The position numbers were made by a program, and so were the translations under genes. From Halichondria panicea (lineage: Eukaryota > Porifera > Demospongiae > Suberitida > Halichondriidae): DNA of 64,000 nucleotides. The stretch is taken from NCBI RefSeq assembly GCF_963675165.1, contig NC_087387.1, positions 5,606,990 through 5,670,989 on the forward strand, given 5' to 3'. Shown in pieces: positions 9,847 to 41,200 of the stretch. The notes beneath the pieces were generated by a model. That model was not told the origin of the DNA, searched no databases, and saw only the letters and a program-made list of their open reading frames with translations. Within the stretch, counting starts at the first letter, position 1. Each line of letters starts with the position of its first letter.

Positions 9847-12800
9847 CTTTGGAGTGACTAGTAGCCCCCCGCTTGCCTCAGTGAGAGCACACACACTGAT
9901 CAGGTGGTCCTGCATGGAGCGCTCACTCAGAGCAAATATACCTACAGATGTGTGTATGCGTGTGTGTATGTGTGTGTGTGGGGGGGGGGATCAATGACAA
10001 GCAATGACAAGAGGTAGCATTGCAACAAGCATGTACGCTAGCTAAAATAATCGTAACACAATTACATCACTGCGTCCTTCATGGCTGTGAATTGTTCACA
10101 CACCACACAAGTACAGCCTATACAGTCACTGTACAAGTACTCCCTACTAATTTATAAGTCATGTGACTATTGTACGCCCCCCTATATACTAGTTCCTACC
10201 AGAGTTTGGTTGGCTAGTGAAGCCGACCATCTGGGGCTCATGTCTGCCAATCTTCTCCAGCCTTCTCGCTTCAGAGTACAACTGCAGCAGAGAGAGAGAG
10301 AACAGGTCAACATTATAATTATACATATCAACATAGTCTCACAAAAAATTGTATCTGGGACTGTATTTACAATAATTATTCACCTGAACGAGATCTTGTA
10401 GTGATGTTTCGTGGTGTATTCCCGAGGTCTCATCAAGCAACAACAGAGTGATGGGTTTAAAGGTCACCTTGCCGTCTTGTAGCTCGCTGAGAAGGCGGCC
10501 AGCTGTTACCATGGTAATGGTTGTCTGTGTATGCTTGAACTCCTCACTCACGGTGGAACTGTCAGCACCTGTCGGAAGAGAGGGAGGGAGTACACAGTTT
10601 ATAGTACATATATTTTATACGATGGCTTGTAACTTATAACAGTTTAGATTGTACGTGCATTTACGTAGAGTAGCTCTTTGGTAGCTGTATAGAGCACTTA
10701 GATCAACGATTGCTATTAATCTTAGCTTTTCAGTATTGCAAGAACTGTCAGTATAGGCAATATTGATGATGTATATAGCTAGGGTTTCATGTAGTGTGGG
10801 GCCGGGGGCAGGGGTGAACCTTCCCCCCAAAATTGTGTGGAATAATGACATCATCACATTAGTACTACATGATGACATCATCACAAAAACAATTGATTAA
10901 CTCAACTAAGCCAAACATTTTGCAGCATGCTTACGCGCGCCCAACCCCAAATTTTATCCTAGATGAAACCCGGCCTCCTAAATACATGAAACAAACCACA
11001 ATGATAACCTAGTACTCACCTGTGATGCACTTGATATCTCCGAGTGGCAGGAGCTCCTTCAACTCTGCATGCAACTGCCAGGCTCGACCAAACGTATTTA
11101 CCACAATGAGAATTTTCGGGGAATTTCTCGTATTCTTGATATGCTCACACAGCAACATTGCCATCAGCTTGCCATTTTCAGACGAATTCGCAACGTATGC
11201 TATGTAGCTTTTTTGCTGGAATCCTGGTCTAGTCAGCTCGAAATGGTGGCTGCTTAGATGCGCCTCTGTCTGGTTAAGGGAGAAGTTACCAGTGCCAATG
11301 AGAGGCACTGTTTTGGTAGAGGGTGGTGGGCTGGAGGGCGGAGTCACAAATTCATTGTCGTCCATTGCAGTACCAGAGAAATCTGAAAAAAATTATATAC
11401 AAAGGTAGTCGATGTAGTTAACTACAATTAACGAATAATTATAATAATAATATGCACTATTATATTCAAACTGTGCATATTGAGCATTCAGGATAGATAA
11501 TGGTGACAGTCTGGCTAACCAAATTCCTTTTGAAGCAACTCTTCATACATCCGTTCTCCCGACTGTGTGCGTGGGTGAGTGGGGGGGAGCAGTGCGTACA
11601 TGTACATTACAAGGTAATATTCAGTGTTAATTACTTTACATGTGTGTGACAAGATCTTTCGCAACCTATAGCTAATACACGTTACAGCTGAGTTTGGATC
11701 AATAGTTACAGCATCTGGTGTACACACTGCACGTACAGTAGCTAAAGACTCACTACATTTCACCCATATAACCTAGTAACAGACTCACGCTGGTCATCTC
11801 GTGCTATAGTACCCTAGTAACAGACTCACCCTGGTCATCTCGTGCTGCCCACATATTTCAACTCTCAGCACATTCTTCCCCGTCAACAAGCTCCTCTGAT
11901 TAGCGTCCAACGGCAAAATAAGACCCTTCAAAAAAACCGGCAATTGAAACAACATCACCATGACACCTCCGTTCATTTCAACACCAATCAGCAGGAGAGG
12001 ATAATGGGTCATTTTGAATGCAGTTGAAGCGGCCAATCGGAATGCTTCCAGCTCGTGGAGGGTGTGCTGCGAAGGATCCCAGGAGACGAAGATTCGCAAA
12101 AAAGAGAATCCATTTTTTCGCGGAGGATTGAGAATTCGAGGAGCTAATGTGATTGGACGCTGGTTGAAATAGTTGAGCTTTTGGACGTAAAACTGTTTGA
12201 CACTCGTGTCGCCATAGGCAACCAGAATATCAGTGAGAACGTGATACGTGAATGGAGTGAAGTACGGGTAGATGGCATCAAATATATCCTCTAGCGAATC
12301 GGAATTTCTGAGCGTGTCCAGTAGTTGGTCGTACAGCGGTTGCTTGGTTACGTCTTGGTCACCGTAGGGACGAGTTGCATCAATCTTTTCGAGGAATGCC
12401 AATAAGTTCTGAGAAAATAAATGTACAGTTTTATTTAGAGTTTCAACTTCATATTTACTACCACAAGCTTCAATTTCATCCCTAAAATTTTTCACCATTC
12501 ATACCTGAGGCTCCACCTTCTTGTAGCGGATCATACACAGAGCCTGTGTGACCAGTTGCTGAAACGAGTCAACCAACTCCTCGTACTGTCGCTGCAATCG
12601 AAACACCCTGAGGGGATTTCCCTCCGCGTTAGACGGCCCCAGGTAGGGGAACTCACTGAATACACCCTGAGGGGAGTAGGTGTGTATGAGGGTGTGGCAA
12701 GGGCAGGACGAGACCCCACAGCCGACGCCTGTGTGTGTGGGGGGGGGTCAGATAAAAATGTTGTACACGGATATCATTGAGTAGTTTGTATGGCTCTAGC

Positions 12801-13271
12801 TATAGTCAAATCTACGTAAGTACGACTAAAGCTTTAATTGTCCTGTTTAGGAGAGGTTGCTCACTGCACTGTCAAGGGAGTTCATGTAGATCTATATCAT
12901 TGGATGACATCCCTGCGTGCGCGTACCAACCCAAATGGTCATACTGGCCATGCATGGTTCAGGGTTCCATTATAATCTACGCCGGTACTGCTGTATTAAA
13001 GATAAGTGTGTACAGTTAAAGGTACCTGTTTCAAGATTTGGCGAGTCTTGGTAATGTTCACTCATAGGCTGGTCATCTAGTGTGTGTGTGTGTGTGTGTG
13101 TGTACATGTACATATGTGTGTTGTGTGTGCGTGCCAGTAGACTATACAGTAGCTCATCAATGAACTCAGGCATATAACATACAACAATAACTTACCCATC
13201 CTTAGCTCACTGTAAGCTGTAGCCAGAGATTCTGCTGTAGCATAGGTACGTAATAAAGATTTGTTGGTTGC
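7993..13271 (-). CDS. RIG-I-like receptor with degenerate helicase and novel N-terminal module (5' end not found)
   Basis: Eleven exons join in phase: 13271-13196, 13076-13026, 12728-12505, 12408-11830, 11562-11520, 11382-11020, 10568-10384, 10281-10200, 9941-9847, 9710-9531 and 9240-7993. Together they give 1041 residues plus stop. The first listed exon begins in phase 0 without a clear ATG, so the true start lies upstream. Order: a helical region (DSFQQLVTQA to NYFNQ), an alpha/beta region (RIFVSWD, TLHELEAF), a proline-rich linker, helicase lobe 1, an insert with an RWNQHYIGFVQ block (compare QKYEQW in RIG-I), helicase lobe 2, and a C-terminal RNA-binding domain. The last has two zinc-binding CxxC pairs (CKKC near 8359-8370, CTNC near 8184-8201), then EWGH and LPVLRAKHFLFE, matching the RIG-I/MDA5/LGP2 C-terminal domain. 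Helicase motifs are eroded: motif I reads NSSENGKL, motif II DETS instead of DECH, motif III FTSQ, and motifs V and VI are unrecognisable. Likely a cytosolic RNA sensor or regulator without ATPase activity. Confidence 0.85.
9771..9846. repeat. Microsatellite (CA)n with (CACG)n core
   Basis: A CA/ACGC run lies in the short intron just before the GT donor of the exon ending at 9847. The donor itself reads gtgtgtgtgt, so the splice site sits directly in the repeat. Confidence 0.95.
11770..11850. repeat. Tandem duplication of an exon end and splice donor
   Basis: The sequence taacagactcac-ctggtcatctcgtgct occurs at about 11777 and again at about 11818. The second (upstream in the gene) copy is the real end of the 579-nt exon of the RIG-I-like gene. 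The first is a decoy copy of the exon end with donor cagcgtgagt instead of caggGTGAGT. Confidence 0.75.
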
Positions 13272-13329
13272 CTAATCAGCGTTTACGCCCACAACTTCAT
13301 AAACTAGATTCATAGAACCACAAGAAGTG

Positions 13330-13373
13330 TAGCCTCGAATCCACGCGGATTAATCGGCGTGGATTCGAGGCTA
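13330..13373. mobile_element. Minimal foldback element, TAGCCTCGA family
   Basis: A 44-bp near-perfect palindrome (TAGCCTCGAATCCACGC ... GCGTGGATTCGAGGCTA) is flanked by caagaagtg and caagaaggg, a 9-bp target duplication with one mismatch. It lies just upstream of the first recognised exon of the RIG-I-like gene. Confidence 0.8.
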
Positions 13374-13439
13374 CAAGAAGGGATGATTGTCAGTTGCCAG
13401 CGAGTCTACATATCTATTCATCAATTCAACATGATTTTA

Positions 13440-15030
13440 CAGCATTAGTTAATGTTGAATCATAGATGATACAGTACTGACGTGGATGTGAAACGGCCTA
13501 GTATACGGAGGGGTCCACGGGAATTGTCTGAAGCTATCATCGTAACGAGCAGATTATGTTAGAAACCCTGTAACTGTCATGTTTATATAGCAACCAGAGC
13601 GTAGTAAACAGTGTTCCGTGTCTGAAAACTGGTGAAAATGACCGGCACACATTGATACTTGCAGTGGGCTTGTAGGTAAGACTAGTTTCTCTAAGCTCAT
13701 GGGAGAATATCATATTTTAGCATAAATTTTCCTGTAAAAATACTTTGTGTGAGATTTTTGGCTTGGACAGTAAATATTCAGGTTACCATTCAGTAGTAAT
13801 ACTTGAAGTACACTGTAAACTACGAGGAGAATCTATGTTTGACAACTGTTATGAAAGTTTAGGTGCTATAGAAAGGGCTAAAGCATGAGTTAGTTGCACT
13901 TTTTGCGTGAGATTATTTCTAAACCTGTTGAGCCTACTTTTTGCATATTTAGCTGATGAAAACCTTCGTGTATTGATGCAGCAGGAGAATCTATTAACTA
14001 AGCATACAGTAAAGTTATTGGAAAAATACAGCCTCAAGAAAAATATGTAAAATCCATGTACATGTACTGTTAAACAAAAATTAATGCTACGTTCTTATTA
14101 CAACTACAATTATGATTTCTATCAATAAGTTCACACGTACATGTACATGTCATTAACTTTCCAAATTGCAGTGTTGTCTTTCGCTGAGCTAAGATATCAA
14201 TTGCCAAATGTTAGCTAATTATACTATCAAGTGAAATTTATCCCAGGACCTACTCGAGTGCTACTTCTCTAGGCAACACCATCGGTGAAGACAGCATTAA
14301 CGTCCAACCTCTTTTCAAGTGCCGTGTATCTACACTTGTATATATAGGAATTTCGAACCGGCAAGTTGGAATGTGTCTCTCTCACAGCCACTTCGTAAAC
14401 GATCAAGAAACAGTTTATCGTGTACTATAAATTAATACTCTCAAGACTATTATAATAATTATTAGCATGTACACGTACACGTACACGTACAGATCATCAA
14501 CAATTTCACCCGTTTGCTTATCTCATGCTAGTGTTATGAGTCAGCCACACTTCTTTTGATCTACATGCATGCTACCAACATTGAGTGGCTTGCTTTTTGG
14601 ATATAATTACATGGGTACAGGGGTAGATCTACTATAAAATAATAATTATAGACTATTATTTTACTAGACTAATTATAGAATAGTTAATATCATCTTGCAC
14701 TGGACTGTGCTTCCTCTACTCATTCTACCTCCTCACAGTCACTACTACTGTCTTCGCTTAATACACTTGCAGCATCAATATCCTTTCTGTTAATACATAG
14801 ATTCTCTTTTACCTGTCTCTGGCCAGTTCTGCCAACTCACTTACACAGCTGCTTGGTATAACCTCGATAATTTCCTCGGCGTTTATTTGGATCAAATTGC
14901 CTAATTTACGGAAACTAGTAAATTACCTCGGATATGCCCGTTACTATGATAGCTTCAAGCAGAATACCGGAATCCGGAAACGTTTCACATCCACGTCAGT
15001 ACTGTATCATCTATGGTTGAATATTCAAGA
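13440..15030. repeat. Inverted repeat, arms of about 100 bp, 1.4 kb apart
   Basis: Bases 13452-13555 (gttgaatcatagatgatac, gacgtggatgtgaaacg, gaagctatcat) reappear in reverse complement at about 14930-15025. Both arms contain an open stretch; the + strand one runs on as a 76-codon frame at 14897-15127. The arms may be ends of a decayed transposon or an inverted gene fragment. I do not recognise the product. Confidence 0.65.
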
Positions 15031-15129
15031 GAATATAGCTCTAAAAGGTCGACTAAGCAACGCAACCACTATCACTAAACAAATAAATGCTATAAAAGAA
15101 GGAATAGCCCTTACTATGAAGTCGTGAGA

Positions 15130-16780
15130 GGTCAAGGCCCGTGGTGTGTCTAAAAGTATACTAAAGCAGTTTGAAGGACTATACTGCAAACGTTTATGAA
15201 CAGTAAAGCTTATCCATGGCATGAAACCATTCTATATAGGACTTAGATACATAATAACCAAGTCAAGCAATGTCTTTAGCTGTTTAGGCTTCGCAGCAGG
15301 GAAAGAGAAAAGTTGACATGGAGTAATTCAAGCTATACTCAACAAAAACTAAAAACAGAGTAAAGACAGCGGACTTAGACAAGTTAGAGCTTGTCAGTGG
15401 TGTAAACTTACTTCTCTAGAGTAACCTCCCAGCCTCTGAGTGATCGCTAGTGGATAGGAGAGCTAGAAACAGTTGAAATACAACCAGAGTACGGTGAAAA
15501 CAAAAATAATCGCGATCGCGAAATCATAACGCGGAGTGTTTCAACCATTTACACAGGGAGGCCTGGTCGTTTCCAATCCCCTTCCTTTTCAATCTATGGT
15601 TTGCCCAATGCATGTTTAGCAATATTTCACATATTTTCACTCATGTTCAAACTGTTCTATTTCTGCAGGGAAAGGCCACATCAAGAAACTGGCTGGACAG
15701 ATAGCCTTTTCTCTCTTTGTATCTCTCATTTCATAAATCCATGAACGTTGAATGAATATTGTCATTTTAAAAATTGCACTAATTCGAAGTTTCACCGCTC
15801 TTTGTCTGTCTGACTAAGTAAGTAAGTTTCTTGCCCAACATTTGCTCCAAGTACAGCTCTCTCCAGGATATTCTGCACAGGTTTTCTAAACGACTACAAC
15901 CTGGATTACAAAGCGCTTCTTCAGAGTTTACTGGTGGGGTGATGACCGATCCCTATATAATTATGTGCGGGCATATAATCATGTGATGAATTGATGTTCC
16001 TAATACATGCAGTGTTGAGCACAGGTACACATAGTCCATGCATGCGTAGGGACATGCACGGACAGTACTGGTGACCTGCATGGAATGATGTGGTGGATGG
16101 ATCCGAAACACAGTCTATATACTATGATGTAATGTATTGTACATGTTCATGATGTTGTAACGGATTAGAGTTATATGCTCTCATCTGATTTCTTATTTCC
16201 ACGCTTTTTGGTGGTTCCCCTGGCCAATTCTTCACATTGCAAATGTTTTTCTGGTGGGTAATATTAGAGTCTGAGATGTAGCTGGTCAAGACACATGTAA
16301 CACCTTTGTGCATGCATGCATGGCCATATAATTATATCAAAACCAATGGTGTGTGTTCATTCCGTCATGCACTATAAATTATATAGGTTACTGTCCATCC
16401 ACATGCATGGCTTCAGAATGAGCTATCTTTGAATTTTTGCGCAAACTGTTCACACTATCTCCAAACTTCCATATTGAACTAATTTTATATCTCCTAGCAA
16501 CAAGTTTTAGTTCAGTAAATGGTCTGTGTTATGAGCTTTGGAAATCCAGAAAAAAATCACCCTTCACTACAATCTGGCAGAGTTGTTGGTGGTGTCATCA
16601 TAAAACAATGTTTTTGTGATGTCATCTTTATGAATACCATTAAAATACTTGTGGTATGTATTTCCTGTCTCTTGTCTTGCAAATACTGAAAAGTTGGGGG
16701 TCTTAGGGCAGACTATTCTGAAAAGGCTGCAATGGTATTCCAAGTAAGCAAAAATAGGCCTTACTCAAGAACAAAGCATT
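15130..16780. other. No gene recognised
   Basis: Only short frames and AT-rich sequence are visible. There is no spliced coding chain, RNA gene or clear transposon. Confidence 0.5.
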
Positions 16781-16785
16781 ATTTT

Positions 16786-16938
16786 GCAAATCCATGATTA
16801 AAATCCAAGAAAACATGACTAGAAGCCTATATAGAAACTCTTACTTGCACTTCATTGATCCTTGAGCAGCTGTAGCAGTATACACAGACGGTTACACACA
16901 CACACGCACGCACGCACGCACGCACGCACGCACACACG

Positions 16939-16975
<37 letters not shown>

Positions 16976-17012
16976 CTGTATACCTCGCTTGCGCATGCAC
17001 ACCGAGGCATAA
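16786..17012 (+). repeat. Dispersed repeat with internal (CA)n, copy 1
   Basis: The stretch runs from aaatccatgattaaaatcc, through tagaagcctata, tgagcagctgtagcag and a long CA/CACG run, to tacctcgcttgcgcatgc and cgaggcataat. A second copy with the same order of blocks is at 23214-23400. The family therefore carries its own microsatellite seed. The copies share no terminal inverted repeats that I can see. Confidence 0.7.
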
Positions 17013-17816
17013 TAATGTTTTCACCTTCCATCCTCACCCTTCCCCCGTCACCCTCATCAGTAATCTTAAACCATTTGTTAACCCATAGACATTCCTTTTT
17101 TGTTAGAGTAATCCCTATCTGGAATTCCCTTCCCCTAAATGTTATCAGTATGCATGTAGAGAGAAATGAAATAATATGATGTTCATGTTGTTCACTAATT
17201 CGTCTGGTAATATTCGGTAATTAATCATTGAACACCATTCGTCATGTATATCATATACATGTATAGCAGGTTCCTAAGGAGTATTAGGGTCTGAGAGGCA
17301 GAGTGCATGACGTGGGCCTGACCCAAGATCATTTATTTTAATAGATCAAGATATCTTTGACACTGTTTCGTTGGTGGAGCCACTCTGGTTCTGCCCTTCT
17401 GATCTTAACCACAGCTATATAGGGCTCTGTGGCGACTATCATGCAGTACCATCAAGGGCGTATTTGCATGTAAAGGAGCTTTTCCTTTATAGCATGTATA
17501 CTACATAACTATCTAAGCTCTGTCTTCACCAGACTACCGTGAATGAACGTATATATGTCAGTGGACGTGGACAAGACATAATTAAAAATTGAAAGGGATT
17601 ATAAGTAACAAAACTAATATCCGTCTATCATGCAAAAAAAAACTCTTACTACTTAATCGATGACTTAATTTAATAACAGTTTCACGGACTGAAAAATATT
17701 TAAGACTATGTTAACAGTTGATTAGCAGTTACAGTTTGTGGATTTTTTAACTTCAAAAGATGCATGGCTTATCACTTGAATGTATCCCTAAACCGCTCCA
17801 CCCAGTACAACTAGAG

Positions 17817-20800
17817 CTAGTACAGCCAACACAATTTACTCACAACAGGTAGGACAACATGGAGGATCAATGATGAAGATGAGGACACTATAACTGTGAA
17901 CGGAGAAAAACAAAATGGAATGTCATTTCTATGAGAGCCATATATTATATGTACTTAATAACGATGAATCTGAAAATTAACTGCATCTACCACAATAGAT
18001 TCTAGGTCACTATCTTGAGCAGCTGCACAAATATTTAGGGTAGATATCTACGAAAATTGCAACAAAGAAAATGACTCATGCACTATAGGTATTTGTATCA
18101 AAATAATTTTTACTCGTTAAAAGAACATAATTAAGGTTTGTAACTATAATTATGTATACACATTCACCTTCAGTTTTGGAGCCTCTCCATCAAAAGCACC
18201 AGTAATGCTGCTGCCATCTACACTGCAAGTCCTTGAGTTGCTACCAACCAGATCAAACCCAGTGTCACAACTGTGGTTAGCCGTCACATTGAAAACGTAA
18301 TTGCCAAATCCATCAGTAGCAGCAGAATAGATTATAGTTCCGTTAATTGGATCGTCAAGAGGAGAACATGTTATTGCTGCAAAATTAGAAAGTGTATTTT
18401 ACCAAAAACAGAAGTATAGTATTAACCTTTGCATGATGGAGCCAATTTTTCAAAATCACCAATATAGTGCTACTGCCATCTCCAGAGCATTGCCTTGTAT
18501 TATTACCAACCAGAGCAAACCCAGAGTTGCAACTGTAGGTAGCCATTATATTGAAAGAGAAGCTGTTGTTTTGACCAGGCACATTCGAATAAGACACAGA
18601 GCCGTTGGCTAGATTGGAAAGTGGAGGGCAAGTTATAGCTGTATAATTATGTAGCAGAAATCATCAAATCTACAAAAATGAATGCATAATTATAGTCTAC
18701 CTTCACAGATTGGAACTAGGCCATCGAAGGCACCATTAATGCTACTGCCATCTCCTGTGCAAGTTGTCGAGTTGTTACCAACCAGAGAAAACCCAGTGAA
18801 ACAGCTGTATAGGTAGCCACCACATCAAAAGCATAGTTATACCGTTTTCATCAGCAGTAGAATTCTTGTATGTTACAGAACCATTAGAAGGAATAGTCAA
18901 GAGAGGGCAGGTGATAACTGTTGTATATACAGAGAATATGAGTGATTCAGCCTACAAGTTTAAAGTTGAAGCCATGTAACTCACGCTGACAAGTTGAAGC
19001 TGACTCATCAAAGGCACCAATAATACTGCTACCATGCATCTCCAGTGCAAGTCCTCCCCATGCAACCATGCAGAGAAAACCCAGTGTCACAGCTGTAGGT
19101 AGCTACCACAGCAAATACATAGGTGCCATTTTCATCAGGTGAGGCTCCACCAACGTTAATACTGCCGTTGTTTAGCATGGGCACACCAAGGCAGGTTATG
19201 ACTGGTGAGTGGGTGGAGTGGGAGGGGAGTTAAGAATGTCCAATAACAGAAGGTTGCGCTTACGTTCACAAGTTGGAGCTCCTCCATCAAAAGCACCAGC
19301 AGTGCTACTGCCATCTCCAGTACACATTCCCGAGCTATTACCAACCAGAGAAAACCCAGTGTCACAATAGTAATTAGCCACCACATCAAAGACATAATTG
19401 TTGTTTCCATCTGATGAGACTCCACCAAAGTCAATACTGCCACTAATTGGCGCTACCACAGCAGGGCAGGTTATAGCTGGAGAATAGAGTACAGTTGGAG
19501 AGGGGATAGGAGAGGGTTTACATACATGCAGTCCAGTGAAGAGCTAGCACTCACAGTCACAAGTTGGAGCCGTTCCATTAAAGCCACCGTTGACACTTGT
19601 CCCATCTCCGGTACAAGTCCTTGAGTCGCTATTAATCCAGTGTCACACGAGTAGATAACCGTCACATTGAACTCAAGGTTGCCATTTACATCAGTAACAG
19701 CTCTGCCATAAGACACAGAGCCATTGATTGGGCTCATCAACGGAGGACAGGTTATGGCTGCATTAGAGAAAATTGGTTAGACAGCTGAAACAGAACATGT
19801 TGATGGTCTCACTCACGTTCACAAGTTGGATCAACTCCACTAAAGGCACCGGTAGTGCTACTGCCATCTCCACGGCAAGTCCTTGTATTGTCCCCGACCA
19901 AAGCAAACCCAATGACACAAGTGAAAGTGGCCATTGCACCAAAAGGAATTTGAAATGGATTGTTATTAGCAGAAATAGCTCCACCACCATAGTCTACTTC
20001 ACCGATTATTGGGTCCCTTAGAGCAGGACAGATTATGACTGCATGGGGTGTTCAAAGGTGGAGTGGAGGACCTTAAGTCACAAGACTCCGGACAACAATA
20101 ATTATTGCATTGGATACTCACCTTCACAAGTTGGAGTTGCTCCATCAAAAGCACCAGTAATGCTACTGTCATCTCCAGTACAAGTCCTGAAGCTATTACC
20201 AACCAGAGAAAACCCAGTGTCACAACTGTAGATAGCTATAGCCTTTCAAACTCTAAATCACCATTGTAAACCACAGAACCATTGGCAAGATCGTTCACGG
20301 GAGGGCAGGTAATGACTGCATAGAGTAATGGAGTTTGGTTTAACATTATTCATACACTCACTTTCACAAGTTGGTGCCTCTCCATCAAAAGCACCAATAA
20401 TGCTGCTACCGTCTCCAGTGCAAGTCCTTGTGTTGTCCCCAAGTAGAGAAAACCCAGTATCACAACTGTATGTAGCCATGACATTGAAAGTATAGCTGTT
20501 GCTTTGACCAGGCACATTCGAATAAGAAACAGAGCCGTCGAGAGAATTGAAAATTGGAGGGCATGTTATAGCTGTAGCAGAGAAAAACATTTGCTATATA
20601 ATTTATAACTCGATCCTAGAATATTGTTTAACTTCCTATACCTTCACAGATTGGAGAAATACCATCAAAATCACCATTAGTGGTACTGCCATCTCCAGTG
20701 CAAGACCTTTTATTATCCCCGACAAGAGACAACCCAGTGAAACAGCTGTAGGTAGCCACCACATCAAAGGCATAGGTGTCGTTTTCATCAGCCATGGAAC

Positions 20801-22386
20801 TGTATACCACAGAGCCATTTGAAGGAACATTCGAGGGAGGACAGGTTATGGCTGTAGTGAAAGGAAGTAAACAGTAAATGACATCTTCTATTAAACACTC
20901 AATTTACCTTTACAGATGAATTCATCAGTTCCTGAAAATAATATTATAGCACCAAATCCATTCAGACAGCTACAGTTGAACTACTGTCCCATGTTATTCA
21001 AACAAATAGAATTTTGACCACAGTTGCATTGTATATGGGAGATAATCTCATGCCTCCAGGGTAACCGTAAGAATTGGAAAAGCTGAATCCATACACACTG
21101 AAACACCTAGAACTGCTGAGCTGTTTTGATGGCGGATAGAATGAGCTCCAGCAGACACACTCATTCTACTTATGTGGCCACACACCTCACCACTTGAACA
21201 TGTGATATTCTGCCAGTCAGTTACAATAGAATTGTCCAATAATATTTGTTCAATTTGAAAATACTCGGAAGGAACATACATCGTGACATAGTTGGATACG
21301 AAAAAAGGAAATGCTTCGACAACATAGTTATTTGTATACTGCTCAATTGGAGGGATTATCATCATGAATGGGTCTCCCACACCACCTTCACCACCATATG
21401 CATACTGAGCGACCAGTACTAGAGAAGTGTTCAATGCTACAGACACTTAATAGTGAGTACAAACTCTCTGAAACTTCCTCCACTCTCAGTCTGTAACTGG
21501 AATTCACTGACCAATACCCCAGTGACGCAGTTCACAGCTACAGTTGCTGCTCGGGCACTAAGAACACGAATACGTTCACCAGAAGACCTACCCTCGAGAG
21601 ATGCTACGAGGAATTTTGAACCCCATGTCACAGTCGGAGGCACTTGCTCAACCAGGTGGTCACAATAGCTTCTACCTGTTGGAACGTTAGCACAATCAGA
21701 TCCGCTAAACACAGACAAAGGTTTGGAGCTAGTTATTCTTGTTCCTGTGAGATCATTAGTACCACTTGCAATCAGATATGTTTCCATACTATTGAGTGAT
21801 ATTGTTGTGGAATGGAATTTGACAACAGTTCCATTTTCACAAGCTACCACCAAAATCACACTAGGATATATACTGAAAGTGTCATAAGAAATTCCATAAT
21901 ATTCGTATTCATCCACTGCCATTACAGTACAGGGTAATGCTAAGTAGGCATCTGCAGACAATTCTTCAAAAGAGATCCCAAACACGTTTACGTTTCCGTC
22001 AGCTTCAACAAGGATCCCCTTGTTCCTTTCATTGACAGACAAAACCTCAAAACTGATTACCGTATAGTTGAAGAGTTAGAAATATTCCTGCTCAGATCAA
22101 TTGGAGTGACCATAAAACTAACAGCACTTGACTCTGGGTTTGTAATGAACAAGTACAACTGATCTGCTGCCTCACTACCATTTATAGGGAAACCCACCAC
22201 AAATTTGTTGCCAGTTGATGAGGTCACATCTATAGGATCCATGCAATGAGAAATGTACAAGCATATAGATGTACAAGAATTCAGGCATGCAGTCTTACCT
22301 GTGACTTGGGCATCACAAAATGCTTTCTTGTGAGCAAATGTGATTACGATTATTGACAGGGTCAAAGTAGCAATCCTGTAGCTCAT
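17817..22386 (-). pseudogene. IgGFc-binding domain plus ten sushi (CCP) domains, surface protein with multiple frame lesions
   Basis: Exon 1 (22386-22299) gives a signal peptide (MSYRIATLTLSIIVITFA). Exon 2 from 22229 carries an IgGFc-binding N-terminal domain (SVFSGSDCANVP, CDHLVEQVPP, GDPFMMIIPPIEQY, YGYPGGMRL). A short linker exon (near 20938-20915) leads to ten single-exon sushi domains, mostly phase 1, at about 20852, 20571, 20318, 20037, 19759, 19474, 19200, 18919, 18640 and 18377. The last exon (17893-17817) encodes a serine cluster followed by a hydrophobic tail, like a GPI-attachment or membrane-anchor signal. Sushi domains 1, 2, 4 and 6 are intact. The rest, and the IgGFc domain, carry about ten frame breaks. 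Either this is a recent pseudogene or the sequence has systematic indels. Intact relatives would be adhesion or complement-like surface receptors. Confidence 0.8.
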
Positions 22387-22559
22387 TTTAGTAACTGGGT
22401 ATAATCTTCTCTTATTAATTTTATGGGCTTCTGGTATAACTAGTGTTCAAGCTGGCGCTGTGCTAATGCCTCTCGCCATGATTTGCTTTCGCTCAAAAGT
22501 ATAGAAGAGAAAGTATAGAAGAGGAAAAAGTGTATAAAATAATCTGTCTAAAACTGACT

Positions 22560-24020: not shown

Positions 24021-24029
24021 TAGTATGGG

Positions 24030-26190: not shown

Positions 26191-26208
26191 CAACTTAGGA
26201 CAACTTAC

Positions 26209-28495: not shown

Positions 28496-28994
28496 GGTTT
28501 CATGGCACATCACTGTGCATGCATATTTTAATCAGCCTAGAATATGAGGCTAGTGCAGAACCAGTATATTAGAATAACCACTTTCATCTATAAAGAAGCT
28601 GTTCATAAATTTGTGGTGTGTACATACATGTCCATTCATTCAGGAAATGCAGCCGAAACCAAAAAATTCAATTACTGATGATGTAATTGTAATGCACTGT
28701 CAGAATAATCGAATAAGGACATCGATCGTTTTTAACAACAATCATGGTTGATCATTACCCACTCTTCGAGTTTCCTGTATGCAGCAAAATTATATGCAAA
28801 ATGTTGATCGTGTTATTAGTAGCTTTATGTTATGTAGCTTTGGACCTCCGAGGCATCAGGTGCTTCCATTAATCACACATCTATTCACTTATAACTGATT
28901 TCTACAATAAAATTAATTTGTAGTGGAATTCATAATGTGCATGTAATTAACGCAAAATAGGATAATATTATACAAACGCTATGATAGTTATCAG

Positions 28995-31056
28995 TCACTT
29001 GTCTTTCTTTGCTGCCTCCAGTTCCCGGCGTGCCCTCTTGGAGAGCCAGTGTGAGAGCAGGGAGGGACAGTAGTGGGAGAGGTAGGGGATCATCAACCAC
29101 CATTGCTCAGACACCCACACCTGCATGAGGAATGAGACGTGAATAGCCAGTATATATAACACTAGTAGATAAAGAAGTCTCCAGACACTGCAATAATCGC
29201 AAATTAAAGGGCCTCATAATAAGACAAGGTTTAAAATTAATGCCACTGAGAGGCACATACAATTATACGACCAACTCTTGATACGACCAACTGCTTTACC
29301 TCCTTCTGTTGATTGGACACACCTGTTAGGACCACCTCCACACACCTGAGTCATAATAATACATTGCTATAAAATTGGCAAACTCATGTACGTCAATTAA
29401 GCACACGTAAAAATATTATGTCACTACAGACACACCCATGCATGTGAAGCTGTTAACGTTATCAATTACAATGGCTTTAAAACCACCTAACCAAAACTAA
29501 TTGATGCTAGATTAGCTGGACAGAAGGAAAACACAACCTATAAGCATATGTAACACTCGGACAGAACTTCAGTTGAGCTCATTGATGTATATATTAGCGT
29601 AAACCATGGCCATGCACTACACAATCCAACAGCTGGGAGAAGCACTGCTAATCTACAAGGAACATTATTCACATACAGCTTAAATACATGTACAGCTTAA
29701 ACACAGCACACTCCTGTTATGACCTCTGTCTATAACCAACACAACAATGAGATAATAATAAGGCACCTTTGTACAGACATCCCAGTTGCTATGAGATTAT
29801 CAGAGACTCCGAACTTTGACCCATCTCCCTTGAGGGCATTGACCCCTGCCCCTGTCACCACTGGACCGGGAGCCACATTGGTCACATGAACATTGCTGTC
29901 CAGCATCTGTAATCACACATGACAATCATGTGGCTATAAAAGTAGCCGTATACACGCACATTTAGACCATGTCTACAATAATGTCCATATAAGTGCCTAA
30001 AAGGATTATTTAATAGTCCATTCCGTGGTCCTTACAAAACCTATCCCTTATACGTGTATGTCGCTTGTGTGGCCTCTAGACAAGATAAGCATGCAGCCTA
30101 TCAGTTGATTGACATTGACCACATGTTATTTGGTTTTTATGCCACATAGCTGCTAAGGATGGATGGAACATTTCACATTGCCATGGAAACAACGTGCAGT
30201 AGCTACCGCCCACTTGTTATGATGCTAAGAATGTTCAGTACTTAGCTAATGGGGGAGTATGGAGCCACAAAGCTGTATTTGAGATGATACCAGGTCATGG
30301 TCTACATGCACATACTAAGGCAACTTAATTTGGGGCTCATTAAACAGAGGGTGCATGACCACACTGGAGAAAAAAACATGTTATTGGTAGTTTAGTACAT
30401 CGTTAGAAATTACTCACTGCCATTGGTCATTGATCAGACATTTAATTAGAATGACCATGCATTCCTGTGTGTATGACCAGGCACATGCAAATTACATTTG
30501 ACCACACACACTGACAGCCAATTACATTTGACCACACCCACTGACAGCCAATTTCTAAAATAAGGACATCATATTTATAGATCCTCATTACCTCATATCT
30601 TATCGAGTCCATTAGAGCGATAAGTCCAAACTTTGCCGAGGAATAAGCCGAGCGGTTGCTAGGAGCAGCCTTGCCCCAGATGGACGAGATGTTGATAATA
30701 TGACCAAAACCATCCTTTATCATTTCTGCAGAGGACAAACGACACAGACGTAATTGAATGAGGTTTTAGCAATAATTATAAACAAGAGTAGTTCACCTTC
30801 AATGAGCCCGTGAGTGAGTATCCACGGTGCAAAGAAATCTATCTCCATCACTTTGCGATGAACATGCTCCTGAAGATCTCTGAACAATGCTCTTGTGGAC
30901 ACACCTGCAGGCATGTGCATGTGAGGGAGAGAGGAGGATACAACTAGATAATGCATTGCGTCAATTTTTAGGTCACCAAACATAATTTTTAGACTGAAGG
31001 TTATACCCTTTTTGCCTGTGGAATAATTAAAGGACTGGAATACTACCAGGGTTTCG

Positions 31057-31142
<86 letters not shown>

Positions 31143-32853
31143 TACTAGACCTAGATACAGGGCTACATGTAGCTTTGCTAGAGGATGATTGGTCATCATC
31201 TAGTCTTACCACAAATCTATCCTTAATATACAAGTGGTTTCTATCAAACCAGCATACCAAGTTACATGGAGTTGCCTGTCAATGCACACATTGCCAGGCA
31301 TCGCTAATAGGCACCAACAACAAACAATACAGGAGGTTGTGGTGATAGAAAATGGGCGTGGCCTCACATTTTTCACGCGGGCACGCGCGGTTCCTTTTCA
31401 AACTTCCCCTTAGAATCCTAGATGAAACCCTGACTACCTATCAACGAGTTGTTACGCGCATGACGAGTCTAAGGCAACCACAAGAATGCAAATGTCACAA
31501 GTACTCGTGTGCCACCGCCCACTTACTTACTATTACGGCACAAAGTACTACCATGCAGCCTTGAGTACACATATCTCTGTCGGCCTTAATCGAGGCTTGA
31601 AGTATTCACCCATGTTTTGTATACACACACACAAGAGGATATGCACACAGTCCTAGTGCGGTTAAGCATGCTTACTTTAATTCAAAAGCACTTGCCTGAC
31701 TGCACGCTGTAGGATATGCTGCTATGTATCCTACAGCTGTTGACCAATGAATGTAAGTGCATGTGGTATAAACACGTTTGCATTTTGCTGGGACAATTCT
31801 TTCTTCTTGCAAAGGGCGTGGCTTTCAGTCTAATAACTGTATACCTCACATGCATGACTATCATGTGACCTACCGGCGTTGTTGACTAGCATGTCCACTC
31901 GTCCAAACAGCTGACGTGCTTTGTCCACAGACACTCTGGTGGCCTCGGGATCAGAAAGGTCGACAGGGAGCACCCTGTAGTTGAATGAACCATAGATAAA
32001 CAAATATCCTTCTCTATTCGTTTATCTATGAATGAACCAACACTTTAGTTAGTTATTATGGAACCAGTTACACAAAAGTTTAATACTTAAAGGGCTACAA
32101 AATGCATATTTAGTTAACGAATGCATGGGCATCTTAACTTAACTTCCCAAAACTGGCCAGTTTTTGAAATTACAAACACACATCAATTAAAAAACCCCGA
32201 AGTTAATTTAGAGCAAAGTATATACAGTGTATATGATACGGTTACCAAAGAGCTACTAAAAACATCCTTTACTAAAACTCTGGATTACGCTCACTCCATA
32301 TTATATAGCTGCTTCGGCTCTAAACGAATTACCTTGCGTTTTCTGGATTATAGAGATTGTTCCTGACCTCCTCTAGTTTGTGCTGAGTTCGTGCAGTCAG
32401 GATTAGCTTGGCCCCAAGTTTTGAGAGCTGGTAGCACATCTCTTCACCAACTGTAGCAATGCGTGTACTCCGACAGATGCATGTGCAACCATCAGTAATA
32501 ACTTAGGACAAAAAAATGACACATCTAGATCTATCCTAATTGTAGGCCCGGGAAATTGATGCATATCAGGCAGTGTCAGAAAATTAATATTTGTGTTATT
32601 GTATTGTGGGAACCACTCTAAACCATAACTTCCACTGGTCTTCTATTTTTTACGTGTTACAGATCTCACTTCCAGAGCTAGCTCCAGTGATCCACACAAC
32701 TCTCCCATTGAAGTAACCTGGTTTCAATCGACTGCCCAGCACCTGGAGGTCAGCATCTGCAGTCAGTAACCTCACCAATCTGTGGAGGAGGTAGCCAGCA
32801 ATGGCTAGGTGAGCAAGAACCAGCAATAGCAGCCACATCTGATCTAAAAACAT
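28995..32853 (-). CDS. DHRS7-like short-chain dehydrogenase/reductase, membrane-anchored
   Basis: Exons: 32853-32670, 32450-32333, 31974-31874, 30904-30797, 30725-30592, 29906-29767, 29322-29300 and 29120-28995. Exon 1 has an N-terminal hydrophobic segment (MWLLLLVLAHLAIAGYLL), then the cofactor motif TGASSG-IG. Exon 3 supplies NNAG, exon 5 the ISS and the catalytic YSSAK, and exon 6 the APGPV loop. The C-terminus VWVSEQWW fits the DHRS7 subfamily, so the product is probably an NAD(P)-dependent oxidoreductase anchored in the endoplasmic reticulum. Exons 1-6 join in phase. The 23-nt exon 7 leaves the last exon one base out of frame, so an exon boundary here is wrong or the transcript skips part. 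Family length is about 310-340 residues and this gene fits. Confidence 0.85.
31057..31138. repeat. Microsatellite (GA)n, about 80 bp
   Basis: A nearly pure GA run lies in an intron of the dehydrogenase gene. It makes long spurious frames of alternating Ser-Leu or Arg-Glu. Confidence 0.95.
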
Positions 32854-33149
32854 AGAGCTGAAGTGATCCTGTACCCAGGAACAATGGAAAAGGGTCACTA
32901 CAATAGAAAGCTAGAAATTCTACATGTAGTAGAATTTGAATATTGCTGTCTCCGAGCATACATACTATAAATTTATAGTATCTATGCTCCGAGGGCAGGC
33001 TGTACATATAGCTACTAGTAGCTAGCTAGAACTCTGGAACCATACTTCTCTGAGACTTCAGGGTTCTTTGCTGTGATCCACAGCCGGTGCATATATCTAT
33101 GTATTTATGTACCACTATGTACCACTACACTACAGTTGTTGCTCCGGTG

Positions 33150-33300
33150 TGTGCACACGAGATCAACTTTCATGAGATCAACTCCCACGAGATCAATTCT
33201 TACCAGAGCAACTTTGCATGAGGTCAATTGTTAGTAGATCAACTCTCGTAGAATCAACTTTTCATAGGATCAACTTCATGTGATCAACTCAGTTTTACAA
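33150..33300. repeat. Short-period tandem array of GATCAACT units
   Basis: About eight copies of a (g)a-gatcaact core are spaced 17-20 bp apart, with variable spacers (ttcatga, cccacga, ctcgtaga, tttcatag). Not an open frame. It lies between the dehydrogenase start and the start of the ROC-COR gene. Confidence 0.8.
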
Positions 33301-33730
33301 AAAAACGTTGCACTTACAAATTTTACAGTTAACTAGCTGTGTCTGCTGTCTAGTTGGACCAGATTTAGCTAGATAATGGGGTAGAGAATAGTTGAGCGGT
33401 GCTGTGTGTAGCTTGAACTGTACTGGCTGGCAAGAATCTAGTAAGCACCCTATGCACTGATAACTCGTCAGAATGGAGGGTATGTTCTAGGGATCTGGAC
33501 AGCTGTACATCCAAAGGAGCCAGGGAGTGCCAATCATCTTCTCCCAGTCTCTGACACGCTAAACAAAACGAGCTGGAACTGGGAGTCCCAGCTAGAATTG
33601 CTAGCCGGATCTAGACTAATAGAATGACATGGAGGCGTGGTGAGGCCGGATCCACACTAATTGATCGACCTAAAGACGCTCCTGTTCCAGATTTCACGAA
33701 TGGCAAGGAAAGGGTTAAATCAAGTTCTTA

Positions 33731-33965
33731 CAGTGTCTAGAAGTTTAAAACGTTATTTTGCAGGGGGATCAAATTTTATTTTCGCCAATTTTGCTCAGAA
33801 GCTGAGATACAGCGTTGCTCTTTGTACTAGCCGCGATATCGTGAGCGGCTTGTTCTCGAGGTCACCGCACAGCTGGCTTTGATACTTATATCTCTGCTTC
33901 TGAGCAAAATTGGCAAAAATAAAATTTGACTCCCCCTGAAAAATAACGTTTTAAACTTAGACACT
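33731..33965. repeat. Foldback sequence, arms of about 80 bp
   Basis: The blocks agtttaaaacgttatttt, cagggggatcaaattttatttt, gccaattttgctcagaagc return in reverse complement at 33890-33965. The loop is about 75 bp. It is 210 bp upstream of the proposed start codon of the ROC-COR gene. Confidence 0.85.
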
Positions 33966-34171
33966 AAAAACTAAGCTTGAAGTAGTCTGCAAGAGAAGTC
34001 CAATTAGTGACCTTAATTAGCTAAGGTCAAGTGGTTCCAGCCTCCTCTGAAGGTCGCGCCGCCATGTTTTCCAGCTTACAAGTGCGCATGCGCAAAGTCA
34101 ACAAGGTACGCCCTCCAGCACCACAACATTTTGTTGGCTTCTTAAATATAATCTGCTGGCCGACGTGCAAC

Positions 34172-37131
34172 ATGGCTACTGTTAATGTTGGAGCCGGAGA
34201 CTCAGAGGATAGTGGAGAAGCATCGCCACTAGATGGTGAGTGTGGGGGCAAACTATTGCTAAATCTAGGAATAGTAATTACTGAACCTCTTACTAAAATG
34301 TGATACTTTAGCTAGGAACTGTACGTTTCATCCTAGTAAAACTATAGTTATTGTCCACTTATGATGCAGTAGATTATATACGGACCTAAGGTAGTACCTC
34401 ACCATGGTTTAGCTATTATACAAAAACAAGCTTGTGCATATAACATTAACACAGCCAGTGCTAATACACCAGGCAACTTTCAGGCAATCTACAATGATTG
34501 TAGGCAATAATTATGAATTGCCTGCATATTGCGTGCAACGAGTTGCTTACAATACTTGTACCCTGACCTTTAAAAATGGTGGTTAAGAGTATGTTATTAC
34601 TCGAGGCGAACGTGGGCGGCCATGGGTATAGTAGTACTTTGGTCTGTTTGTCTGTTTGTTTGTGATAATTATGTGAGTCTACTCACCTGGATGCCATAGC
34701 ACTGCGTTTACAAACATCGATAGCCTCCACACAACAAGTTATTAGCTTGCTTCGTTGTTGTATGAAAGCAAGTAAGAAGCTTGAACTTAAATTGCACGTT
34801 GCTACATAATTATTTGCAGCTGAAGTGATCCTTTACCAGTCTCTATTAAAAGTAGAACTGTAGGTTGTTGCTTCACTACTCCTCTGGTTTTTATATTCAT
34901 GTCAACAGCCGAAGGTTAGCACTTCAGTGCTTAATCAAAATAGAGTCATTTGGACTGGAAAATTGGACTTTATAATAAAAGCAGGATCTCTCTTCAATCA
35001 GTTCACTAACCTCTGCCACTCAAACAAATGGCCATTTTGATACACGTTCAGATAATTATGAATTGACAGCATGGGTAGCGTGGTTTTATGACAAATAAAT
35101 GATTACTGTGTTTCAGCTGGACTTCCAGCACACTCTAGCTACTCACAATCACTATAATTATATAGATGTAGCTCATGAATAATAAGCAAACGGTATACCG
35201 AGCACTAGCTGTCCCTTTGTATAGACAGTATAATGGAAACAGTAATAGAATCCGATGGAGAATATGAAAATGGCTCTGCATGCAGTGTAGGTCTATCAGA
35301 TCGAGGCTCTAGTTAGTGGCGTTATCATGTATAGATAGCTGTTACAATCATGAGTGGTAAATGACTACCGTATGGCGGGTAATTTTCGTGGGGTAAAATA
35401 TTCGTTCAACTCGAGAAACGGTGGTGTTCGTGAGTAAAAATTTCGTTTAGTCTCGTTGCCTGCACTGCATTCCTATGTTCCGGTAAGTTCCGGTAAGCTA
35501 CGCCTGCGTTAAAATTTCGTGGAGGTCAGCTTGCCCACGAAAATAACTATATTTTACCCCACGAAAATTACCCACTATACGGTATAGATGAGTATGTGAG
35601 CGAGCCCACTCAATTTTTTGTAGCTAGGCCTATATCAGTTTAACAAACACATTCCAAGAAATCATGAATATTGCCAGGAGTACATGAATAGGAGTAAGCA
35701 ACTACTATGTACACCATATAAATTCGTTATTATCTCAATACGTCACAAACACTTGTAATAGTGTAAACTGTGGTTACTTTGTGTACACATGACCATGTAT
35801 GGCTGCATGGTAGGCTCACTAGAAATTGTCAACAAGAGTGCAAGTGCATGTGCAGGCTAGGCTGAAACTATATACATGCAAGACTTAGAGAATAGCATAG
35901 ATCTAGATCTACTCAGCTAATATCATCTAGAGAATGCTTAACCTTAGAAAAAGACGGAATTGGGCTGTTCACCATGAAATTGGTAACTAATCTTTGCTGA
36001 ATAACATGTTTGATGCAAGGCAAAGCAGTTAGCATTGTGTGTGGTGCCGGGTTACCGTGTATAGAGAGAACTAAACTAGAGGTGTGACAAGCTGCTAAAG
36101 TTGCTCCATCTCTTACTTGCAATGGTTGACGTTGTTTCCTCAAGACACACAGCTTGCAATAGCAAGTTGTGTGTCTGAGGAAACAACGTCAACTAGACAC
36201 AGCAGTAACAAGAAATTAAAAGTAGGAGTTTCTTCATAGTCTGAGTCGATTGCTTGTGAGTCTTTTGAGAGCTTCATTTCTACCCCAGATGCAACGCAAC
36301 GTAGGAATTTGAAAATTTAAGTATGCATCTTTGCCTCTACACTTGATGTAAAATTGTTTGTATTGATTGCACAGGCGGTCTGCAAGCTTCACCAAGCCAT
36401 CATCCTGTTCCTTAGAGATTATATTAAAAACCTATTTTCTCTCAGGGTACATCTAGTTGTGGTAGCTTCTCTACTTCTTCAGTTAATTTTCTCACCAATG
36501 CTAGATTATTTTAGCAAGCTTTTTGGCAACTTCTATCACAGTTGCTTTGCTGTGTTCATGTTTCTTTGCTTTTCTTCATTAATTTTTGTGCAAGAGCTAG
36601 CCACCTGGACCTATTCTACCACATGCACAGTGCATGTAATTAACCACACTGTTTTGATGTTTTGATTGTGGTTGTAGGCCACTTGAGATGTGGGCGTTTT
36701 ACACATGTAGTATGACGTGGCATGACACAGTGAGATAACAACACGTTTGTATGGGCTGTATAGTAGTTGCTTACTCCTATTCATGTACTCCTTGATCCTG
36801 ATATTGCGTATACTATTGTTTTTGTGGGCATGAATCTTATTACTGGAATCATTACAAGATAAGGCCAAAGAGATAAGGCCAAGCAAAGTCGATTAATTGT
36901 TTCTCATCAACTTGTGATAAAAGTAGCTGTCATTGCTCTGACACACCCCTTAATTTCCACATGCTCTAAAGAAAGTGATGGGCCATGACTGTGCTGATGT
37001 TAAGAAAAAAATTTTCCTGTAATTTTTATGACTTTAATATAATGACCTCCCCTTCAGGAAGTGGCTGATAAGAAACTAATAATTTGCCTGGCCTAATGGT
37101 ACACGCACTGTCACACAGTGACACACACACG

Positions 37132-37186
<55 letters not shown>

Positions 37187-38243
37187 ATCACACACCGTTC
37201 ACATGCATACACACACACACGAATCACACACCGTTCACATGCATACACACAAGCACACGCAAATGCAAGTTTTAGGCCTATAGCTAACTTAGTTAACTGG
37301 TGTATATAGATTAGTTTCAGTAAGTGTATAGCTTCCTCTCTGGCTAGCAGTTCAAGAGCAGTGATGGTTGAACCACTGAGCTACTTGAGTCTGGATGGGG
37401 GTACATGCCCTATAAGCACCACCCTGTGTACGCCACTGGTGGTGGAATTCGCCGGATAGCCACCATAAAGAAACACACACATGCACTACTATTTATTTAA
37501 ATTGACAAAAGCCTGGAGCTAATTCTAAGAACCCAAATTAGAGGTTAATGATCTTCTTTAGCTTAACCATGTACCACATAGAGGAACCAACCCACTATCA
37601 GCTATACTACCACCACAAAACCTGGCCCAGACAATACAGTCCTGAGTACTTCATAATTATGGCCTCGGGTCAGAAGTTAGTTTGCACAACATGTACAGCC
37701 AAGCCAAGTAGCTAATTAAAGTATTATATATACAGCAACCAATATCAAGTCCAAGATAAGAAATAGCTTACAATAGTTATTCAGTATTATGTGACTTTGA
37801 ATGCAACAGATAAATGGGGAGGGTTGGTCAACCATTCTCTAATCTCAAGGTTGCATGGGCATCTACCTGTTAATTCCTGCATGTATGTCTTTCTGGTTTG
37901 AGTGTTAATTTTTGTTTTCACACATCTGCTCTACTTACCGTATATAGCGAGTATTTTTCGTGGGACAAAATATTCGTGGTTTTCATGGTTGAAGGTCTGA
38001 CCACGAATATTTTACCCACGAATTAAGCGACCTTGCCTACCTTTACCTGCAGTGCAAGCTCCAACCACGAAAATATTACCTGCGAAATGTCTCAATATTG
38101 CTGAACCACGAATATTTTGTCCCACAAAAATTACCCGCTATACGGTATAACTAAATAACATAGACAGGTTTCCACTAGTTGAGCATTCTGTGTTGAGTGT
38201 ATGCATGGTATACGATTGACGATGCATGGAAAGCCACTCTCTC

Positions 38244-38287
<44 letters not shown>

Positions 38288-41200
38288 GAATGTTATCAGT
38301 GATTTTCTTCGGTATGATTGCCTCACAAGGGTATGATTTTGTGCATGGATGAGGGTCCTGTTTTCGTGTGTGCATGTGTATGATTTTCTGGAGGGTGCAT
38401 GTCTAATTCTGCAACCTCAGCAACTTCAACGTCCTTTTGCAGTGTCAGCATATTTAGGGTAGAATTTTCTGGTGGGTATTATATTGTCACTGATAATGAT
38501 TATGCATGCACACAGAGATGTGTGATATGCGTACACTGTATGACAAACTTCACCCAGCTCGCACTGAATGGTTTAATATTGGGTTGACACTGAACTTACC
38601 AATCGAATCATTGAAAGAGATTGACCTTCTTCATAAGCAAGATCCTAAGACGTGTCTCTGCACAATGCTGACTAGAAGACTGGATGCAGGTCCCCTCTCA
38701 TGGGGGGAAGTGTGTGACTGTCTTCGATATCCAATCGTGGGTCGTAACAATTTAGCAGAGGCAATTGAAGAGTGGAGAAAAGGTATGGCATAGATAGCGG
38801 AAACTGATTATCTTCACATGCTTCTACAACTATTCACTAGCTTTTCCAATAGAAATGATGGGCAAAAAGCACTCTAAGACAACACCTGCTCAAGTTCCTT
38901 TTCCTTTATCAAAAGTAGTGACTGGCCATATGCATGGTAAGTACAGCCTGAGTTGGTTTACAGAATGTGTGTAATTGGTAAATTCAACACAGGTCCTGTA
39001 AATTATCACTCCAGTTTGGATGATCAAGTGGATCACCTGGAGACATCGTTTCAATGGCTAACGAATGAAGCATTTCGAAGAATGAAGATATCTAATGTTA
39101 GTGTTGACGATTTCTATGTCGCTATATCAAATATGAAGCTATCAATGAAATGTCTAGCTAAAAAGTATGTTGAAGAATGCTTTGAGAAAGCCAGTACGCT
39201 CCCAAAAATTTGGGGCAAACTAAATCATTTCTGGAATTTCTTCAACTATGAGCTTTTCCAACAAGTGGTTCGAGTCATGTTCACTAAAGCAGATGATCCT
39301 TTGCTGAGCCAACTAGCCGAATATGAGAATGAGATGAAAACATTTCTTTGTAGAACAAAACTTTGTGACTTTGTTGACCATTGGCCATTTTCAATTGCAA
39401 AACCAAAGAAAAAAGCAATAAAACAACTTAAAAGAATATTTGTTACAGTGGACAAAAAATGGGAAGACTGCACTTTACACGATGTGAAGAAAACTAAAAC
39501 AACATTTTCAGTAGGTTTTTCGCTACCTCAGGAATTTATGGTGCTGAAAGGTGCTGGTACCGGCAGTGTGTCAATCCTCTTACATGCCCCTCCATCTCTG
39601 GCTAACTCAATAGAGGAACAGGTGAAACAAGGAAAGGATGACTTCTTAGCAGACAATGGCTTTCTTTCCATCACCATCGATGGTGTCCAGGTCTATCCCC
39701 ACACTCCAATGAGGCAGGCCTCTCTACAAGGTACTACTTTGTTCTCTTGATGCACATAATATACCTGAAAACTTATTCCCATGATATGCATAAGTTATCA
39801 CAAGCATCATCTCTCTTATTATTGGGGGTGTCAGTTGTGAAACTTTATACAGTGTGTATATATATATACGGTGTGTTTGTGTTTTTCGATAAAGTGCCTC
39901 ACGTTCTTTTTTCGCAGTTTTAACAATGGAAACACTAAAGAAAGAAACTAAATTCACTGACGAGCAGCTGGACACAAGAGTAGAAAAAACTGACCTACCA
40001 CAATTATCGTCATATTTCGACAACATCTATGACGGCTATCTTGAGAAGCTGGGCCTCTCATCTGGACAGCAAACTGATGTGAGGAGTCATGCATTCGTAC
40101 ACGGTAGTCAGGGTGGAATGTTGTTAGCTCTGACATACTGGCTGGACAGAGTTGTTGCAGAGGGCACATTCAGAGCTCTGCTACTCATCTTACTCTCCCT
40201 GGGCAAAGAAGACGTTGCTATCAAGGTGGCACAGTACTTGTCAGCCAAGGGTGAGTGAGTAGCTACTAACACAGCGAGGGGTGGAGTGTTGTCTGTCATT
40301 AGTATGATGATAGATCCGTTGCCTATATAGCTTGCTCACTTTCTAGCTAGCTATTGAGGTGACAAAGACATCCGGTTAGTGAGTGGGGTGCATTATAATT
40401 ATAGATGCTATAGTACATGTATAGTTCAGTCTATAGAATATAAATTAACTTGATAATTGTTACAGGTTATTCCATAACAACATCTGAGCTGGATGCAATG
40501 GAGATCAACACCAAAGAACCTATTGAATCAAAAAGTAAGCTGACACCATTACCCCTTTATCTGAGTTAATTATACAGTATAAATTATATTATATAGCTGC
40601 ATGCATGCATGGAATAATAATAGGTGTACTCGATATTCAACAGGTGATGATCAAACTATCAACGAACACAATGCAATGATAATAAATATCCTGGAAACCA
40701 AGTACAATGTGGACAATGGTAAGTATAAGTTTTCCGGCAACAATAAAAATATGTACTGTACCGTACAAGTACTTTTTTCCTTTTGACCCTGAGGATATGC
40801 AGTGCCTCCTACTCTATTTATGCTAGTTAAGCAGTAACTTAAGTCATCGATTTCCTATAGGGGTCTAAGCTTTGTTCATTTGACGTCCCTGTTGGCTTTT
40901 TGGTATCTAAACCACGCCCACACCCCCGTGGAGGCTTAGCCACCTTCTTGTTGGAAAGCAGCTTCCGTGATTCTGCCATCGCTTTAGAGTGCCGCCAAGC
41001 AGGGCTGTTTGCTGGACAATTGAAAAACACCTTGAAATAATATTACGTGCATACCCTGGGGTTCGCTGTATGTTATAATTATAGCCAGGAGCGGATCTAG
41101 CAGGTAGCAGAGGGTGCTCAAGCACCCCCCTGACCTTGGACAAACTTGTGTCTCACTCATTGGCTGATGAAAGTCACTCCCAGACTTGGTACTAGCTATA

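Follow-up and report, generated by a model that had tools for sequence, protein, structure and literature searches.

The analyzed stretch of the genome of the sponge Halichondria panicea (NC_087387.1, positions 5,606,990-5,670,989, or G000:C11:5606990-5670989; the searched genome totals 131 Mb), hereafter referred to as the window, comprises 64,000 nt and carries a gene for a RIG-I-like receptor (RLR) on the reverse strand and a gene for a ROC-COR protein with death-type domains and ankyrin repeats on the forward strand. Both genes encode diverged copies of the same two-part module, with a helical half followed by an alpha/beta half, located on the N-terminal side of the RNA sensor and inside the ROC-COR protein, just as the initial annotation of this DNA had placed it.

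The RLR gene includes nine exons that run from 12666 down to 7993, with AG/GT at all eight introns, consistent phases, and a reading frame of 978 codons that stays open until the stop:

12505-12666, reverse strand: first modeled exon, with the first module helix (from ~12600 down); AG/GT, phase 0; match to the family hidden Markov model (HMM)
12121-12408, reverse strand: 5' part of exon 2, the rest of the helical half, a predicted death-effector-like bundle (AlphaFold model, alignment)
11836-12120, reverse strand: 3' part of exon 2, TRADD-N-like alpha/beta domain, with a GG turn in place of G/S-S/C
11520-11562, reverse strand: exon 3, a short linker; AG/GT, phases 0 to 1
11020-11382, reverse strand: exon 4, helicase domain 1, Walker A lost (alignment to a canonical RLR)
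10384-10568, reverse strand: exon 5, motif II reading DETS for DECH (alignment, splice model)
10200-10281, reverse strand: exon 6, motif III region, TSQP for TASP (alignment, splice model)
9847-9941, reverse strand: exon 7 (splice phases)
9531-9710, reverse strand: exon 8 (splice phases)
7993-9240, reverse strand: exon 9, helicase domain 2 without motifs V and VI, pincer, and RIG-I C-terminal domain with CxxC...CxxC

Neither a start codon nor any earlier exon was found upstream of 12666 on this strand, and the modeled protein, whose true start lies further upstream, contains no CARD. The module stretch, initially delimited as 12728-11830, consists of two exons, 12666-12505 and 12408-11830, split by a 96-base intron; position 12728 falls upstream of the acceptor site of the first modeled exon.

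The ROC-COR gene includes the following features:

38518-38782, forward strand: death-type exon before the module, death-like by eye only
39016-39354, forward strand: helical half of the module, for which six helices are predicted
39409-39699, forward strand: TRADD-N-like alpha/beta half, turn motif GS; ferredoxin-like matches, residues 133-227
39918-40250, forward strand: second death-type domain, 40% identical to 60645-61040 (over 39893-40255)
57628-58443, forward strand: last ankyrin repeats and the ROC GTPase domain (PF08477 Roc, E = 1.2e-6, 29.2 bits, cut-off 27)
58422-59885, forward strand: COR region (PF25497 COR-B, E = 1.8e-4, 21.8 bits, below the cut-off of 27)
60645-61040, forward strand: C-terminal death-type domain, 34% identical to an exon at locus L044

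The module exon of this gene, 38993-39730, was delimited correctly from the start. It is preceded by AG, followed by GT, and in frame with both flanking death-type exons; the exon joins cover these three exons, 38518-40250. The claim that the module sits between two death-type domains is supported weakly: neither flanking exon matched any Pfam family at E ≤ 0.1, and PDB searches with the two gave no match. The exon before the module is 51 to 56% identical to exons that precede four paralogous modules; the one after it resembles an exon from a further module gene (31% identity, E = 2e-14), and that exon matches Death at 0.0023, below the cut-off. Downstream of the module, the order is a death-type exon, ankyrin repeats, ROC, COR, and the last death-type domain, to 61040, the latter without a Pfam Death match of its own. 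The succession of ROC and COR that characterizes ROCO proteins is present, with Roc scoring above and COR-B below its cut-off. The ankyrin part of the gene lies within segmental tandem duplications (42330-52481), where 43486-44939 has a copy of 94.9% identity at 51019-52481 and further copies show 86 to 89%. A minisatellite at 54464-54906 (57-base unit, 7.8 copies, 98% matches) is open in all three forward frames.

Direct BLASTP comparison of the RLR module with the ROC-COR module found nothing (E = 1.3), so the window pair alone would not reveal homology. Profiles were compared by hhalign, using 20 A-type and 13 B-type module sequences, each type aligned separately, with 60 column shuffles and the reversed profile as controls. 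The A-type and B-type profiles aligned with a score of 119.7 (E = 8.3e-17, probability 98.8) versus control values of at most 22.5 for the shuffles and 18.3 for the reversed profile; with the RLR copy left out, the score was 113.1 versus a control maximum of 21.8. Each half also scored well above its controls, the helical one with 57.9 (control maximum 19.9) and the alpha/beta one with 63.2 (control maximum 16.6). Taken alone, the RLR copy matched an intermediate family of 15 sequences with E = 1.1e-5 (score 42.0, control maximum 18.3) and the B family with an E of only 0.0022 (28.5 versus 22.5), and it was found directly with one family member as the query (E = 3.4e-5); judged by these scores, it is a remote member of the family. 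The tyrosine of the last helix is invariant in all 58 family rows (5 of these repeat a place, which leaves 53 distinct places). The two AlphaFold models, of which that of the RLR module (md04218000c69) has its helices within residues 26 to 82, display helices and strands in the same order over the part that both cover. At the level of sequence profiles, homology of the module copies in both halves can be considered established, and the profile and structure comparisons both bore out the module proposed in the initial annotation.

That annotation regarded the module as unnamed. However, it fits the unit of a Death-like or DED domain followed by TRADD-N that is described in the accessible text of Kaur et al. 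2021 (PMC8195603). The case for a TRADD-N-like domain in the alpha/beta half is strong, and that for a DED-like helical half is moderate. The alpha/beta half is predicted to have the RRM-like beta-alpha-beta-beta-alpha-beta order of the TRADD-N fold, and its beta2-beta3 turn contains a tiny residue plus Ser/Cys in 53 of the 58 family rows (48 of the 53 distinct places). Of the 24 copies, 9 matched TRADD-like_N at E ≤ 1, the strongest with 1.9e-4. This was the only Pfam family matched by more than one of the 24 halves, and it was absent in the reversed controls; a genome search with it returned one weak match of 20.7 bits, below the cut-off of 23.7. The window copies themselves had no TRADD-like_N match. 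Searching Pfam with each module as a single sequence, or the PDB with the RLR copy, gave nothing useful, PDB profile searches with the whole module and with each half gave only coiled coils and chance matches, and hhalign against human TRADD-N gave nothing. Foldseek reported no match at E ≤ 0.001 for either AlphaFold model. For the ROC-COR copy, TRADD was absent among the 50 matches listed, and ferredoxin-like matches covered residues 133 to 227; the RLR model does not include exon 1, and no DED was among the matches listed for it. The turn reads GS in the ROC-COR copy, GG in the RLR copy, and GS in a relative of the latter with 66% identity. The loss of the serine in the RLR argues against an entirely standard TRADD-N contact there.

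The module is not particular to the two window genes. It matches at least 151 places of the genome (E ≤ 0.001, union of the matches of two queries), some with NACHT, leucine-rich repeat (LRR), or ankyrin partners; all such counts are exon-based lower bounds on genomic matches. One family member as the query gave 119 matches in 117 places at this threshold, and the other gave 39; a third, with 113 matches, adds two places by eye, for a total of 153. Searches with the single modules gave 78 and 53 matches at E ≤ 1, the two lists having places in common. Among 10 scanned open reading frames (ORFs), NACHT followed the module in four (L007, L039, L041, and L043), L006 contained LRRs, L002 had a kinase in the neighboring ORF, and three were uninformative. 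A separate set of 10 neighboring ORFs included two with ankyrin (L013 and L015), three with weak Death matches (L011, L044, and L051), and five uninformative ones. At L025:838-2178, a CARD-like domain (E = 0.0017, below the cut-off) precedes the module in one open frame. The ROC-COR copy is 62 to 88% identical to 11 other copies, including L007, L039, and L041; since three of these close relatives are NACHT genes, the ROC-COR-type module is found on several receptor types. At G000:C8:6.71-6.76 Mb, 13 module matches form a tandem cluster in a single orientation; one match contains internal stops. Within the window, an open frame at 18153-18398 (reverse strand) resembles a Sushi/CCP domain by eye.

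The helicase motifs of the RLR, not mentioned in the initial annotation, proved to be degenerate. When spliced, exons 4 to 6 align with a canonical RLR encoded in this genome (30% identity, E = 6e-21). Nothing in them corresponds to its Walker A (APTGSGKT), DETS stands at the position of DECH, and TSQP stands at that of TASP. Helicase domain 2 has an insertion in motif V and a motif VI without the QxxGRxR pattern, so that the ATPase motifs I, II, V, and VI are all degenerate. The DEAD fold is still matched (27.0 bits, cut-off 26), and, from its sequence, the gene is to be called an RLR by descent and not as a working helicase. Exon 9 matches PF11648 (E = 6.8e-17) with four zinc cysteines present (CxxC twice); its best PDB match, from helicase domain 2 to the C-terminal domain, is LGP2 (E = 6.6e-12). 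The motif V insertion and motif VI loss are common to all three predicted homologues (P0027 to P0029; 62, 44, and 49% identity), compared over helicase domain 2 and the C-terminal domain, and occur in none of three aligned paralogues. The homologues also keep the four zinc cysteines, and the best-kept part is the C-terminal domain, with 73, 58, and 61% identity; for helicase domain 2, the values are 61, 38, and 47%. P0026, 99% identical to the window RLR and probably from the same species, was excluded from this count. The module and helicase were read in one predicted gene in this genome; P0024 and P0027 to P0029 are separate predictions.

Motifs II, III, V, and VI are kept at four other RLR loci (L062 to L065); the fifth locus, L067, holds a fragment. 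The upstream part was read for three of the four; all three keep Walker A, and module HMMs had no match in their upstream stretches. Ahead of two of these three RLRs, an exon matched Death with E values of 0.0013 and 0.0087, both below the cut-off, and the two Amphimedon RLRs in the accessible text of PMC8998645 both have an N-terminal Death domain; that of PMC6723221 contributes nothing further. The module thus seems to take the place of a Death-like domain; the initial idea that it replaces CARDs, and with it CARD loss in the window RLR, was rejected. The RLR matches on contig 1 come in close pairs (C1:6459371 with 6466376 and C1:9504371 with 9508308), each with one of each of two types (one match is a fragment), which suggests duplication of a two-gene block. 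In the canonical RLR L063 (G000:C10), helicase domain 2 spans two frames and is either spliced there or broken.

The noncanonical state of motifs I, II, III, V, and VI and the lost turn serine would also be expected if the RLR were a decaying pseudogene and its module were debris. However, the 978 open codons are consistently spliced, the homologues share the motif V insertion, the motif VI loss, and the zinc cysteines, and a relative retains the module exon at 66% identity; this explanation appears very improbable and was rejected. The same verdict applies to a dedicated signaling axis between the RLR and the ROC-COR protein, which the distance of less than 28 kb between their modules might suggest: with so many module places in the genome, and with a ROC-COR copy that is distant from that of the RLR and close to others, of which three lie in NACHT ORFs, there is hardly any room for a special pairing. 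Somewhat less remote, albeit still unlikely, is that the module is a true family whose alpha/beta half is another ferredoxin-like domain (RRM, ACT, or SEA type) and not a relative of TRADD-N. Both the turn motif and the matches to TRADD-like_N, the only Pfam family to recur among the halves, argue for TRADD-N, and the accessible text of Kaur et al. lists ACT and dystroglycan as structural neighbors of TRADD-N as well (PMC8195603).

The two stretches are best viewed, with good probability, as diverged copies of one module, predicted to be a DED-like six-helix bundle joined to a TRADD-N-like domain and likely a plug-in adaptor that would connect different sensors to shared death-fold signaling assemblies. 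The adaptor function, already proposed in the initial annotation, is the best reading of the shared module and a likely one. The helical half would make homotypic contacts and so bring the TRADD-N face to a downstream partner, which would be recruited through that face. In the ROC-COR protein, the GTPase could serve as a GTP-dependent switch. The RLR, with its degenerate motor motifs, would have to signal without the motor; since its RNA-binding C-terminal domain is kept, RNA binding by this domain without the ATPase would serve as an ATP-independent switch, releasing the DED-like bundle or bringing copies of it together. Whether there is a conserved lineage of ATPase-dead RLRs that recognize RNA by the C-terminal domain alone and signal via DED and TRADD-N, not CARD or Death, which would make them RNA sensors that lack ATP proofreading, is evenly balanced. 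RLRs are thought to tell self from foreign RNA by ATP hydrolysis; if such a lineage exists, the sensing of RNA is separable from ATP-driven discrimination, and a conserved motorless RLR with a TRADD-type adaptor in the place of Death would offer a direct test of the role of TRADD-N outside vertebrate TRADD. That NACHT, LRR, ankyrin, and ROC-COR parts all occur next to this module supports the notion of a shufflable signaling bridge in common use in early animals.

In the surveyed literature (titles and abstract openings, with few subscription journals), no degenerate sponge RLR and no animal combination of TRADD-N with ROC-COR was found. LGP2/DHX58, unlike the window RLR, retains Walker A and DECH in the alignment. 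It also differs in that it is not known to have an N-terminal signaling domain. The poriferan A1-type RLRs, with N-terminal Death, come from the same phylum and share the helicase and C-terminal domain, and the two other RLRs of this genome with a weak Death match resemble them; the window RLR differs in its DED-like and TRADD-N tail and degenerate helicase motifs (PMC8998645, accessible text). According to the accessible text of Kaur et al. (eLife), which names no animal ROC-COR fusion and no sponge RLR fusion, TRADD-N has undergone expansions, with 357 NCOA6-clade proteins in Amphimedon; most architectures have N-terminal Death-like domains, a DED-TRADD-N dyad is found in oysters, and TRADD-N is proposed to keep flanking domains inactive until a signal arrives (PMC8195603). 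The Amphimedon proteins resemble the module family in the N-terminal Death-like domain, TRADD-N, variable C terminus, large lineage expansion, and ankyrin and LRR partners (PMC8195603). In cnidarians and brachiopods, the same text describes RLR-like receptors fused to TRADD-N; these are placed in the DEDD2 clade and, similarly to the window RLR, combine an RNA receptor with TRADD-N (PMC8195603).
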